Assembly (NCBI GenBank): GCA_019750255.1
Contig: JAIEOU010000002.1
Span: 1-49,659 of the forward strand
Origin: Patescibacteria group bacterium
Lineage (GTDB): Bacteria > Patescibacteriota > Minisyncoccia > Phycocordibacterales > UBA918
Direction of reading: 5' to 3'
Length of the DNA: 49,659 nucleotides
Positions 10,200 to 41,019 of this stretch are shown here, in pieces. A program made the position numbers and the translations under genes. Under the pieces are notes generated by a model. That model was not told the origin of the DNA, made no database searches, and saw nothing but the letters and a program-made list of their open reading frames with translations. Each line of letters opens with the position of its first letter. Position 1 is the stretch's first letter.

Positions 10200-10877
10200 A
10201 TGCCGATACGAAAAGTATCGTTTAGTGAAGGAGAATACTACCACCTCTATAACCGTGGAAATTCACGGCAAACTATTTTCCGTACCACTGATGACTATAA
10301 TCGCTTTGTAGCATTACTCTATTTAGCTAATGGAACAAACGCCTTTGAGGTTCGTGACATAAAACCCGAAATCTTGTTTGCTCTAGATCGGGGTACACCC
10401 CAGGTGGCTATTGGCGCGTACTGTCTAATGCCGAATCATTTTCATATCCTCGTCACACCGCTTGTTCAGCAAGGGGTGACAACGTTTGCAAGAAAACTGA
10501 CAGTAGGATACTCAATGTACTTCAATAAGAAATATCATCGTACCGGGTCATTGTTCGAAGGTCGGTTCAAGTCAGAGCACGCTGAAGGTGATAGGTACCT
10601 CAAGTATTTATTTTCATATATTCACTTAAACCCAATAAAATTACTACAATCCGGTTGGCGGGAAGTGGGAATAAAAAACAAAGCAGAAGCACTGGCGTAC
10701 TTAAAGCAGTACCAGTACTCGAGTTATGTTGATGGGGAAGGGAGTCGCCCGGAAGCGGCCATATTAAACCTGAGCGTCTTTCCAGACTACTTCTCACACC
10801 AAGGCGGGCAGGATGATGAGTTACTTGAATGGTTATCGTACGGCCCGGCTAGTAATACTTTGCCGACACTGAAATAG
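10200..10877 (+). CDS. REP-associated tyrosine transposase (Y1/HUH, RAYT)
   Basis: 225 residues. An IS200/IS605-like HUH single-strand transposase of the REP-associated group: YHLYNRGNSRQTIF at the N-terminus, the HUH pair in PNHFHILV (about residue 80), and FEGRFKSEHAEGDRYLKYLFSYIHLNPI with the catalytic tyrosine region. It would cut and join REP-like hairpins. Copies of such hairpins flank the locus at 10148, 11479, 11519 and 11557. A TACACT box 7 nt before the ATG suggests a leaderless transcript. Confidence 0.93.
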   Translation: MPIRKVSFSEGEYYHLYNRGNSRQTIFRTTDDYNRFVALLYLANGTNAFEVRDIKPEILFALDRGTPQVAIGAYCLMPNHFHILVTPLVQQGVTTFARKLTVGYSMYFNKKYHRTGSLFEGRFKSEHAEGDRYLKYLFSYIHLNPIKLLQSGWREVGIKNKAEALAYLKQYQYSSYVDGEGSRPEAAILNLSVFPDYFSHQGGQDDELLEWLSYGPASNTLPTLK

Positions 10878-32727: not shown

Positions 32728-33870
32728 TCAAGATACATAGAGGTATTCTGTAGTTCGAGTCATGTGCTCCACTGAACGATACTGCATTTTTATTTTTAGG
32801 GTATCGGCATATCGTGTGGCTTCGTCAGGGTGACGGAGGAGGTGGATAATGTCTAATGCTAGAGCTGCAACATCGTCTGGAGGCACCAGTAGCCCTGATT
32901 CCTTGTGGTCAACAATATTAGGAATACCCCCAACGTTTGTGGCTACCACCGGAACCCGGGCGAGACCTGCTTCGTGCAGGACATACCCATACGACTCTGA
33001 CTTTGAGGCGAGGGTGAGGAGATCAAAGGCTTTTAAGAAGCGCGCTGCTTCGGTGAGGGAACCCAGTAGAAATACGTGTTCGCTAAGGTTATCTTTTTCA
33101 ATCTGTGCTGCGAGTTTGTCGCGAAGCGAGCCATCACCAATACATATAAGTCGCGCGGTCGGGTGTGTTTTAACAACTTCAGCAAAAGCCGAAAAAAGTA
33201 TGGTGTGGCGTTTGATGGGGTGGAGTTCGGCGAGACAAACAACCCAGGGATCAGAGAGGTGGGGGCGTAGAAAAGCGTAAAAGTCGGCGATTTTTTCGCG
33301 GGCCTCGTCGCGCTCATACATAGCACCAATCGTGCGGCCTGGATTGATTACTTTCATTTTTGCCCAGGCGCCAGGCCAACGCATTTCCTTGAGTAATCCA
33401 TTTGAAACGGCGATAGTGCGATGTGAGAGAAGAACGGTTAGCCAGTGGGCAATTTTGATAATGTATTTCTGTGCGGACGATCGGTCTTCATTAAAGGCCC
33501 AGCCGTGGGCAGTAAAGATAATTTTTGGCACTCGTGCCAGGCGTCCAGCTATGGTCCCAACGAGTCCGGCTAAAGAGCTATTTACATGGAATATATCAGG
33601 CTTCTCGGTCTTGAGTAGTCGGTATAACTCCTTAGTTGCAGCGAGGGTACGGGCGGGATGCATGGAGTTTTGCATGGCATAGAGGGGAATGGTGCGTATT
33701 CCGGCATTGTCGAGCATCGTGACTAGGGTCCCGTTGCCGCCAAGGGCGACGACCGGTTCAAACTGTTCGGTATCAAGCGTGGTTGCAAGGTCGTAGACGT
33801 AGCGCTGGGCGCCACCCCAGTTTGATTTTGTTATAAGGTATAGAACCTTTTTTCTAGTTTTAATTTCCAT
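32728..33870 (-). CDS. Family 4 glycosyltransferase
   Basis: 380 residues, GT-B fold. N-terminal VLYLITKSNWGGAQRYVYDL (acceptor side), the linker GAWAKMKVINPGRTIG and the donor-site E-x7-E motif in SKSESYGYVLHEAG. It would transfer a sugar from a nucleotide donor in surface glycan or pilin decoration. Its 5' end exists twice: an orphan, recoded start lies at 34243-34300, beyond a hairpin array. Confidence 0.9.
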   Translation of the reverse strand: MEIKTRKKVLYLITKSNWGGAQRYVYDLATTLDTEQFEPVVALGGNGTLVTMLDNAGIRTIPLYAMQNSMHPARTLAATKELYRLLKTEKPDIFHVNSSLAGLVGTIAGRLARVPKIIFTAHGWAFNEDRSSAQKYIIKIAHWLTVLLSHRTIAVSNGLLKEMRWPGAWAKMKVINPGRTIGAMYERDEAREKIADFYAFLRPHLSDPWVVCLAELHPIKRHTILFSAFAEVVKTHPTARLICIGDGSLRDKLAAQIEKDNLSEHVFLLGSLTEAARFLKAFDLLTLASKSESYGYVLHEAGLARVPVVATNVGGIPNIVDHKESGLLVPPDDVAALALDIIHLLRHPDEATRYADTLKIKMQYRSVEHMTRTTEYLYVS

Positions 33871-33984: not shown

Positions 33985-34240
33985 TTACAGACGCTGTCCT
34001 TCTTACAGAAGCAGTACAGGTTGTCGCTATTTTTAGCAAAATAGCTGGCAACCACCTGAAACAGAATATTGAATTCTGTTTCAGCTCGCTCACTATTTTG
34101 CTCCAAGTATTCGCAAAATAGCTGGGCGAGTCTTGCGAAATGGGTTCTTACAGAACCTGTATAGGTTGTCGCTATTTTTATCAAAATAGCTGACAACCTC
34201 TTGCGAAGTGACATTGAGTCACTTCTCACCCACCCATTCT
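33985..34240. repeat. Stem-loop array between glycosyltransferase and sugar transferase genes
   Basis: Six hairpins: 34019-34053 and 34163-34199 (direct copies of GGTTGTCGCTATTTTT...), 34056-34084, 34085-34130, 34142-34157 and 34206-34224. The unit TTCTTACAGAA plus the long hairpin is repeated with a ~145-bp period. The hairpin GGTGAGAA..TTCGCAAGA and the small CTGTAAG hairpin recur at 40314-40413. Confidence 0.8.
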
Positions 34241-34242
34241 CA

Positions 34243-39284: not shown

Positions 39285-40271
39285 ATGAATATCATTAAGC
39301 ATAAGTATCTTTTCATAATCACCGGCCTTGCAATTGTATTTGTATCGCTCGCCATCACATTGATCTTTGGTCTTCGCCCGGGCATAGATTTTACTGGTGG
39401 CGCACTCACAGAGGTCCGGTTCGAAACGCTTCCGGAAAAGACGGATGTCGAAGGCGCGGTGTCTGCTGTTATTTCCGAACAGTTTTCGGTTCGCCAATCA
39501 ACCAGTGATGAGGGTAATGGGTACCTCATCAGTACGCGAGATTTATCATCAGAAGAATCTCAGGCACTCTCTGAGGCGGTTCTTGGGCTGGGAGAGGGAG
39601 CTGAGATTGTGCGCTATACGTCGGTCGGTCCAGTGATTGGTGCCGAGCTTGCCGACAAGGCGGTGTGGGCAATCGGGGCAGTTCTTATTTTAATTATTGT
39701 GTATGTAGCCTTTGCCTTTGCTGGTATCGGGAAGCCTGTCAGTTCTTGGATCTATGGCTTTATGACCATTGTGGTGCTTGGTCACGACATCCTCGTTCCG
39801 ATTGCAGCGATGTCGCTCCTTGGGTACTTCATTGGAGCGGAAGCGGATATATTGTTCGTGACCGCCCTTCTCACAATCCTTGGTTTCTCAGTCAATGACA
39901 CGATCGTCATCTTTGACCGTGTGCGTGAAAAATTAAAGGAGAATCGCACCGAACAGAAACATACTGTGAAAGTGGTGGGAGGGATGGATCGGGTCGAGAC
40001 GACCTATACCCTAACCCGTCCATTCGGCACATTGGTTGAAGAGGCTATTAATGAAACAATGGCCCGTTCAATCAATACGTCGCTCACGGTGCTCTTTGCC
40101 CTCGGCGCTCTCTACTTATTTGGTGGAGAAGTCACCGAGACGTTCGTGCTCGTGCTTATTGTAGGTGTGGTTGCGGGAGCTTACTCTTCAATCTTTATTG
40201 CATCACCACTCCTCGTGGTTTATCAAGAGTGGCAGGCTAAGCGAGCAACTACTACCGTCGCCAAAAAATAA
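39285..40271 (+). CDS. secF: Protein translocase subunit SecF
   Basis: 328 residues. Six membrane helices, the RPGIDFTGGALTEVRF motif after helix 1 and the conserved GFSVNDTIVIFDRVREKLKE. Works with SecD. The orphan 5' end of the P-loop kinase gene starts 3 nt after its stop codon, suggesting that the kinase was once directly coupled to secF. Confidence 0.95.
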   Translation: MNIIKHKYLFIITGLAIVFVSLAITLIFGLRPGIDFTGGALTEVRFETLPEKTDVEGAVSAVISEQFSVRQSTSDEGNGYLISTRDLSSEESQALSEAVLGLGEGAEIVRYTSVGPVIGAELADKAVWAIGAVLILIIVYVAFAFAGIGKPVSSWIYGFMTIVVLGHDILVPIAAMSLLGYFIGAEADILFVTALLTILGFSVNDTIVIFDRVREKLKENRTEQKHTVKVVGGMDRVETTYTLTRPFGTLVEEAINETMARSINTSLTVLFALGALYLFGGEVTETFVLVLIVGVVAGAYSSIFIASPLLVVYQEWQAKRATTTVAKK

Positions 40272-40274
40272 ACT

Positions 40275-40433
40275 ATGCTAATCGGAATCACCGGTACTGA
40301 TGGAGCCGGCAAAGGTGAGAAATGGGCTGGGACCCATTTCGCAAGACCTTTTGAGAAATTTCTGGAGCTGGCGAACAGAAATGTCCAAAAGGTGTACTGC
40401 GCCTGTAAGGCGCCCGTGCCCCAACTAAGTTAA
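40275..40433 (+). pseudogene. Orphan 5' end of the P-loop kinase gene plus hairpin insert
   Basis: The first 14 codons read MLIGITGTDGAGKG, identical to the intact gene at 40459. Eleven of the 13 codons after ATG differ, all only at the third base. After GGT the sequence becomes GAGAAATGGG, the start of the hairpin array, and the frame runs to a stop at 40431. Confidence 0.8.
40314..40416. repeat. Three-hairpin module inside the kinase insert
   Basis: Hairpin a: GAAATGGG/CCCATTTC. Hairpin b: ACCTTTTG/CCAAAAGGT with inner ATTTCT/AGAAAT. Hairpin c: GCGCCT-GTA-AGGCGC after TGTACT. Flanks GGTGAGAA, TTCGCAAGA and TGTACTGC are shared with the array at 33998-34229, while the stem bases differ. Confidence 0.75.
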
Positions 40434-40458
40434 ATTTAGTCACCTAGCGCTATTTAGT

Positions 40459-41019
40459 ATGCTCATTGGAATCACTGGAACAGACGGCGCGGGGAAGGGC
40501 ACGGTCGTCGAATACCTCGTAAAACAAAAAGGCTATCTTCACTTCGCCAGTCGTGGCTATCTTACCCGCGAGTTAAATCGACGAGGCCTTTACGGCAGTC
40601 GCGCCAATTTACGTGAAGTGGCCAATGAACTCAGGGCGCACAATGGTGATGGGCATCTCGTCACTGTGGCTTTGCGTCAAGTGCACGAAGAAGCCTGGCC
40701 ATATCTCATCATTGAATCTATCCGGGCCGTGGCCGAGGTGGAAGCTCTTCATGCTGCTGGTGGAGTGCTGCTTGCTGTTGATGCGCCGGTAGCGGTACGG
40801 TACGAGCGAATCGTGGGCCGGGGGTCGGCTTCTGATCACGTGAGCTTTGAAGAATTTGTCGCGCAGGAGACTCTAGAAATGAATGATCCTGATCCACACG
40901 GTATGCAAAAGGCCCGGGTGCTCGCTATGGCTGACTACACCATCATCAATGCCGGTTTATATAGTGACTTAGAAGCAGCAACAGAAATCGCTTTGGCTGC
41001 GCTCGAACAGATGAGCTAG
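40459..41019 (+). CDS. P-loop nucleoside/nucleotide kinase-like protein
   Basis: 186 residues. Walker A GTDGAGKGT at the N-terminus, then ASRGYLTRELNRRG, the strand ending LIIESIRAVAEVEAL and a lid-like RYERIVGRGSASD. Resembles the AAA_18/dephospho-CoA kinase and NMP kinase group; substrate not determined. Its start was apparently replaced: an older, recoded start survives at 40275. Confidence 0.75.
   Translation: MLIGITGTDGAGKGTVVEYLVKQKGYLHFASRGYLTRELNRRGLYGSRANLREVANELRAHNGDGHLVTVALRQVHEEAWPYLIIESIRAVAEVEALHAAGGVLLAVDAPVAVRYERIVGRGSASDHVSFEEFVAQETLEMNDPDPHGMQKARVLAMADYTIINAGLYSDLEAATEIALAALEQMS

Follow-up and report, generated by a model that had tools for sequence, protein, structure and literature searches.

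The window, i.e., the whole 49,659-nucleotide stretch of DNA that was analysed, carries on its forward strand a secF gene (39285-40271; Pfam SecD_SecF_C, 1.6e-47), followed by an intact gene for a P-loop kinase of 186 residues (40459-41019; Pfam AAA_18, 3.4e-9), relatives of which are present in 32 of the 38 genomes of the genus. Between them lie an orphan start of the kinase gene (40275-40315, forward strand; 41 nt, MLIGITGTDGAGK plus GG), a structured element that we call E (40316-40413, same strand) and a spacer with a small ACTAA/TTAGT hairpin (40414-40458), which leads up to the kinase 5' end in its second, recoded version (40459-40499). Three nucleotides separate the secF stop from the orphan, and MLIGITGTDGAGKG is the translation of both 40275-40316 and 40459-40500. 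As the first-pass annotation of this DNA had it, the same kinase start is therefore encoded twice, with 11 of the 13 codons after ATG differing, at the third base only. That annotation also had the orphan cut after GGT, immediately before a stem-loop array. The array does start where the orphan ends, but nearly every copy of E begins with TGAG or TGAA after a G, so that T40316 is the first base of E and the orphan ends at GG|TGAG; without this base, 10 of the 12 complete codons after ATG are silently different. Within E we distinguish HP1 (40316-40343), HP2 (40343-40397) and HP3 (40399-40413, with a TGTAA loop). The hairpins are real, with folding z-scores relative to shuffled sequences of -3.3 and -3.4 for the two strands, and the element is recovered by a covariance model (R1; 84.5 bits) and by nhmmer (8.5e-19).

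When the window's own genome (0.95 Mb) was searched, related pieces of the insert were found on other contigs. The pattern AAGACCTTN{15,45}AAGGTGTAC has 7 copies in this genome, compared to 0 for the reversed control, and occurs in 25 of the 38 genomes of the genus. Alignment of 34 copies defines an element of approximately 100 nt with three irregular hairpins, running from G|TGAG to the arm-TGTAA-arm hairpin: HP1 (TGAGAAA..TTTCGCA), HP2 (AGACCTTGCC..GACAAGGTGTA) and HP3 (arm-TGTAA-arm). In this alignment 97.8% of the cells pair, and 18 of the 23 pairs have changes on both sides (double compensation). Compensatory covariation is seen in all three helices, and its overall value (0.443, versus 0.153 for shuffled alignments) is far above all shuffles and slid controls. 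Within the family that comprises Kaiserbacteria and relatives, model R1, which was constructed without the HP1 pairs, detects E in 46 of 49 genomes, at 0 to 70 copies per genome, the highest number being that of G004 (our handles are G for genomes, with G000 the window's own, and L for loci). Across the order the element numbers hundreds of copies; 83 of the 197 genomes sampled there contain it, representing 65 of 140 genera, and the named records among them are mostly Candidatus Kaiserbacteria and Zambryskibacteria. Rfam covariance models gave only snoRNA noise, far below cut-off, for 40000-40800 and left E unmatched at ten other loci, and we therefore reject E as a known Rfam structured RNA. 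A viral origin was likewise rejected, given that IMG/VR viral contigs contain zero exact matches to the pattern. A literature search returned no description of similar elements, and E apparently makes up a family of small, structured mobile elements that is new to the literature.

That E moves is indicated by clean insertions that lack any duplication. Such insertions are found in a pseudogene that is the second kinase copy in G033 (L071; GGTAAAGG|E|..CAGTTGTC), in a dispersed repeat of G004, and in the HP1 loop of another E copy within the window (34228-34142). G004 in addition has identical copies at different loci. Nearly all copies have a G immediately before TGAG, and usually another G before that. 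Being short, structured, multi-copy and non-coding, with evidence for insertion, E has the properties of a small palindromic mobile element or MITE, and we have little doubt that it is a mobile structured element. Antisense copies are found at tRNA 3' ends. Downstream of several tRNA genes (L013, L024, L025, L037, L040 and L085), HP2-HP3 lies between the arms of long inverted repeats made up of the 3' end of the tRNA, and HP1 interrupts one arm in some of them; this is a second arrangement of E. At L010 and L031, in two species, HP1 holds the stop codon at the 3' end of an apparent lepA.

The kinase gene is not the only one in the window with a split start. On the reverse strand, 6 kb away, a glycosyltransferase gene (32728-33870; Pfam Glyco_trans_1_4, 1.7e-29) has an intact reading frame with its own recoded start (MEIKTRKKVLYLITKSNWGGAQ) at 33870, and its orphan 5' end (MTPVTSRKKVLFLIAKS..) lies at 34300-34243, one base short before the junction. 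The interruption (33995-34242) comprises E, the nested second copy mentioned above, and a third, partial copy that follows (34053-33995).

The same layout, in which a truncated gene copy is followed by E and then by the intact gene, recurs across genomes. For at least one fifth of the tested elements, the 5' flank (..G|TGAG) repeats the adjacent intact gene in truncated form: 34 of the 97 elements with a left end in a first sample reached p <= 0.01 relative to random pairings, 32 of 161 in a larger sample exceeded a stricter 99% null threshold, and 8 of 35 in other families of the order exceeded a looser cut-off, part of these matches being repeats of dispersed sequences rather than genes. Among the split genes, identified via Pfam and Rfam, msrA is affected in G000, G028, G029 and G038, GH1 in six species, and the glycosyltransferase in G000 and G034; other protein-gene cases are the kinase, acylphosphatase, RNase HII and the nusA leader. 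The initiator tRNA has a duplicated start at E in three species, and other tRNAs and 5S rRNA are hit as well. At several loci, E is immediately followed by a further approximately 10 to 13 nt of target, and only then by a spacer (RNase HII, 11 nt, GAGGCCCCCTC; tRNA, 12 nt, GCGCATTTACAC; 5S, 12 nt, CACCCGTTCTCA); in one antisense 5S case this stretch exceeds 20 nt, and at the kinase locus none is recognisable after E. In having a gene that is split, with its complete copy restored and a fragment displaced, these loci are like those of gene-end-restoring integrative elements. Orphan/intact pairs recur far above the shuffled-pair null and homologues of the insert are present elsewhere in the genome, and the arrangement at the kinase locus is thus not due to chance. 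The earlier reading that an insert entered the kinase gene near its start, with a complete recoded start behind it, holds, but the event is not a one-off, since the insert belongs to a widespread mobile family.

Which of the two starts is the resident one follows from their positions. In most relatives lacking E there is one kinase start, 2 to 6 nt after secF, so that the empty sites anticipated in the first-pass annotation do exist. The kinase orphans in the window, in G030 and in G023 have a similarly short spacing to secF, and the msrA orphans of G029 and G038 lie directly behind the upstream gene, like the single start in many relatives without E. Since the orphans keep the native spacing and position, the kinase orphan is the resident start and the second start was added.

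To what extent the two copies diverged under selection is informative about where the second start came from. Over 17 protein-coding pairs, which were picked from the hits, include repeated genes that are partly non-independent and contain one pair with another hairpin type, we count 53 codon differences that are silent and 17 that replace an amino acid. When the orphan is taken as neutral, matched simulations, run on short sequences under a simple mutation model with rates matched on silent changes, predict 68.5 +/- 5.5 replacements instead of the observed 17. Both starts were therefore under selection during most of their divergence, and the 17 pairs taken together reject in-place divergence of an orphan that had already lost its function. 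Most likely, the second start stems from a functional allele that had already diverged, or the orphan lost its function only recently. Decay of orphans is visible as an ATA start codon in the kinase orphan of G030 and as the one lost base in the glycosyltransferase orphan of the window, which argues against continued use. Other pairs are fresh and identical (RNase HII, 41/41; GH1, 32/32 and 23/23; tRNA, 26/26 and 34/34; msrA, 66/66), showing that copying from the same gene or within-species transfer also occurs. In most identical pairs the similarity ends within 0 to 3 nt of the gene start, with different bases upstream, a boundary that allele transfer accounts for only if the spacer is older. 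At msrA in G000 (L003/L222), the orphan equals the functional copy over 66 to 70 nt including the HP3 end (GTAAGGAA), which suggests later homogenisation or a fresh local duplication.

Two explanations for the recoding had been put forward, i.e., a diverged donor and selection against identity between the copies. The former is favoured by our data, and the latter fits less well with the identical fresh pairs and with the codon table, in which the relatives' codons are matched by the orphan in 100 of 284 cases and by the new start in 101 of 284. Special recoding of the second copy is rejected on the basis of this codon table. The suggested comparison of the replacement codons with other lineages did not yield a donor: silent sites are saturated between species, the affinity of the two kinase starts to G036 versus G028 is suggestive and not significant (p = 0.13), and G281, the best match from outside, is dismissed as a donor because the whole protein is only 43% identical and the match looks like chance.

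Taken together, we propose that E is a small non-autonomous mobile element that would insert after G, preferably GG, with approximately two target bases lost or exchanged where it joins the gene. Codon 14 of the kinase gene is split by E, the 41 nt on its left would be a fossil of the resident start that could no longer give the full protein, and the second start behind E keeps the gene intact. Because insertion of E would otherwise destroy such genes, only loci with a rebuilt start would be expected to persist. The rebuilt kinase start would most likely be that of a diverged allele, acquired via recombination of an E-bearing allele from another lineage, in which case the recoding would simply be ordinary synonymous divergence between lineages, comparable to that of phages and islands which bring a gene end of their own. 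Survival filtering and delivery by allele transfer are the steps that we deduce from the pairs rather than observe, and we consider the chances that this account is correct in full to be roughly even.

A possible though doubtful alternative is that the second start was made in place, with integration of E copying the outer part of the gene, either as a long and variable target duplication or via template switching at the hairpins, after which the copies diverged. The identical fresh pairs, and the 10 to 13 nt of target after E in several of them, would fit such a process. However, a dead orphan should not give 10 silent and 0 replacement codon changes, the abrupt change of upstream bases at the gene start is present even in identical pairs, and the clean insertions came without duplication. 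It is also conceivable, albeit improbable, that the orphan is still in use, with E and the second start being removed from the RNA in an intron-like manner or bypassed, and both starts being selected. The low replacement rate on the orphan and the covariation of all three helices are consistent with this, as are species-specific features common to both starts (FKWG versus FYWG in GH1, KKAYIA in msrA, the first base of the initiator tRNA). Against it stand the lost start codon and missing base described above, the antisense position of E at tRNA 3' ends, and the absence of an Rfam intron match at E. Frame-preserving excision of E alone is rejected, as a tally across events gives mixed frames. 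In a quite improbable form of this idea, E would be a new type of minimal intron-like mobile RNA that is removed or jumped over together with the second start, generating one product from two starts; if so, its insertion would be tolerated owing to the second copy of the exon that it interrupts.

RNA guidance or reverse transcription would place E and the approximately 12 nt that follow it as scaffold and guide, or would make the whole layout the cDNA of a transcript. The short target matches directly after E and the fact that the copies begin at gene starts are in line with this very unlikely scenario, but TnpB/Cas12f-like domains are found in 0 of 49 genomes of the family, and reverse transcriptase (RVT_1) is found in 12 of 49 and is missing from G004 with its 70 copies. 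A guide RNA system of the TnpB type (as in IS200/IS605-type single-stranded DNA elements) and retro-copying of E were rejected on these grounds. The same is true for mobilisation by Y1/RAYT transposases: Y1_Tnp is present in 15 of 25 pattern-positive and 8 of 13 pattern-negative genomes of the genus, and at the loci that were read, E does not lie beside Y1 genes except at L129. Thus none of TnpB, reverse transcriptase or Y1 tracks E. The window itself has a RAYT-type Y1 transposase gene (10200-10877, forward strand), and no copy of E adjoins it. Finally, E could be a cis-regulatory leader RNA and not a mobile element at all, given its conserved structure, the repeated association with the same genes, and a similar spacer after E at msrA in G000, G028, G029 and G038. 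We regard this as highly implausible in view of the very different targets, the positions at gene 3' ends, the antisense and nested copies, the identical copies at unrelated loci, and copy numbers ranging from 0 to 70 per genome.

Integrative elements that supply a variant gene end of their own, e.g., e14 in icd and SXT in prfC, resemble the proposed arrangement in that the gene is split, the replacement end differs mostly silently, and the displaced end remains. In contrast to these, E measures only approximately 100 nt, has neither a gene nor a recognised att core, and occurs in unrelated genes of many kinds as well as in tRNAs and 5S rRNA. Rickettsia palindromic elements and MITEs, roughly 100 to 150 bp in length, are hairpin-forming, non-autonomous and located within genes, and the likeness of E to the Rickettsia elements in all these respects is one of general description. 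The Rickettsia elements are read through in frame, whereas at E the gene start is present twice. These elements, other small palindromic bacterial repeats and MITEs are covered by two reviews (PMC2229807, PMC10969869). With REP elements (RAYT/Y1), E has in common irregular hairpins, a conserved G-rich 5' end and a RAYT-type gene in the window; it differs in the independence from Y1 reported above and in not flanking Y1 genes. CPR bacteria are reported to have frequent insertions in their rRNA genes, which can encode homing endonucleases (PMC11270868). E likewise hits rRNA genes of this radiation, but it is non-coding and lies in truncated copies beside intact rRNA genes.

E thus apparently represents an undescribed and very widespread family of structured mobile elements of approximately 100 nt in one CPR order, for which insertion into an important gene is tolerated time and again, with the gene start present once more behind the insert. 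The pairs of old and new starts offer a way of testing how alleles are transferred and how insertion takes place in bacteria that are barely culturable. For annotation, E loci are a source of false short ORFs and misplaced starts. Other hairpin types occur in the same layout, at a tRNA (L171) and at the kinase gene of G030. A hairpin type of the form AATTnGC..TTCCTAG..GCnAATTGCTG lies between secF and the kinase gene at L044 (G030), L048 (G029) and L070 (G024), and in G030 it comes after an orphan kinase start. At L129 (G030), two partial copies of a tRNA 5' part lie ahead of a tRNA that apparently has a group I-like intron, and E cuts one of these copies.
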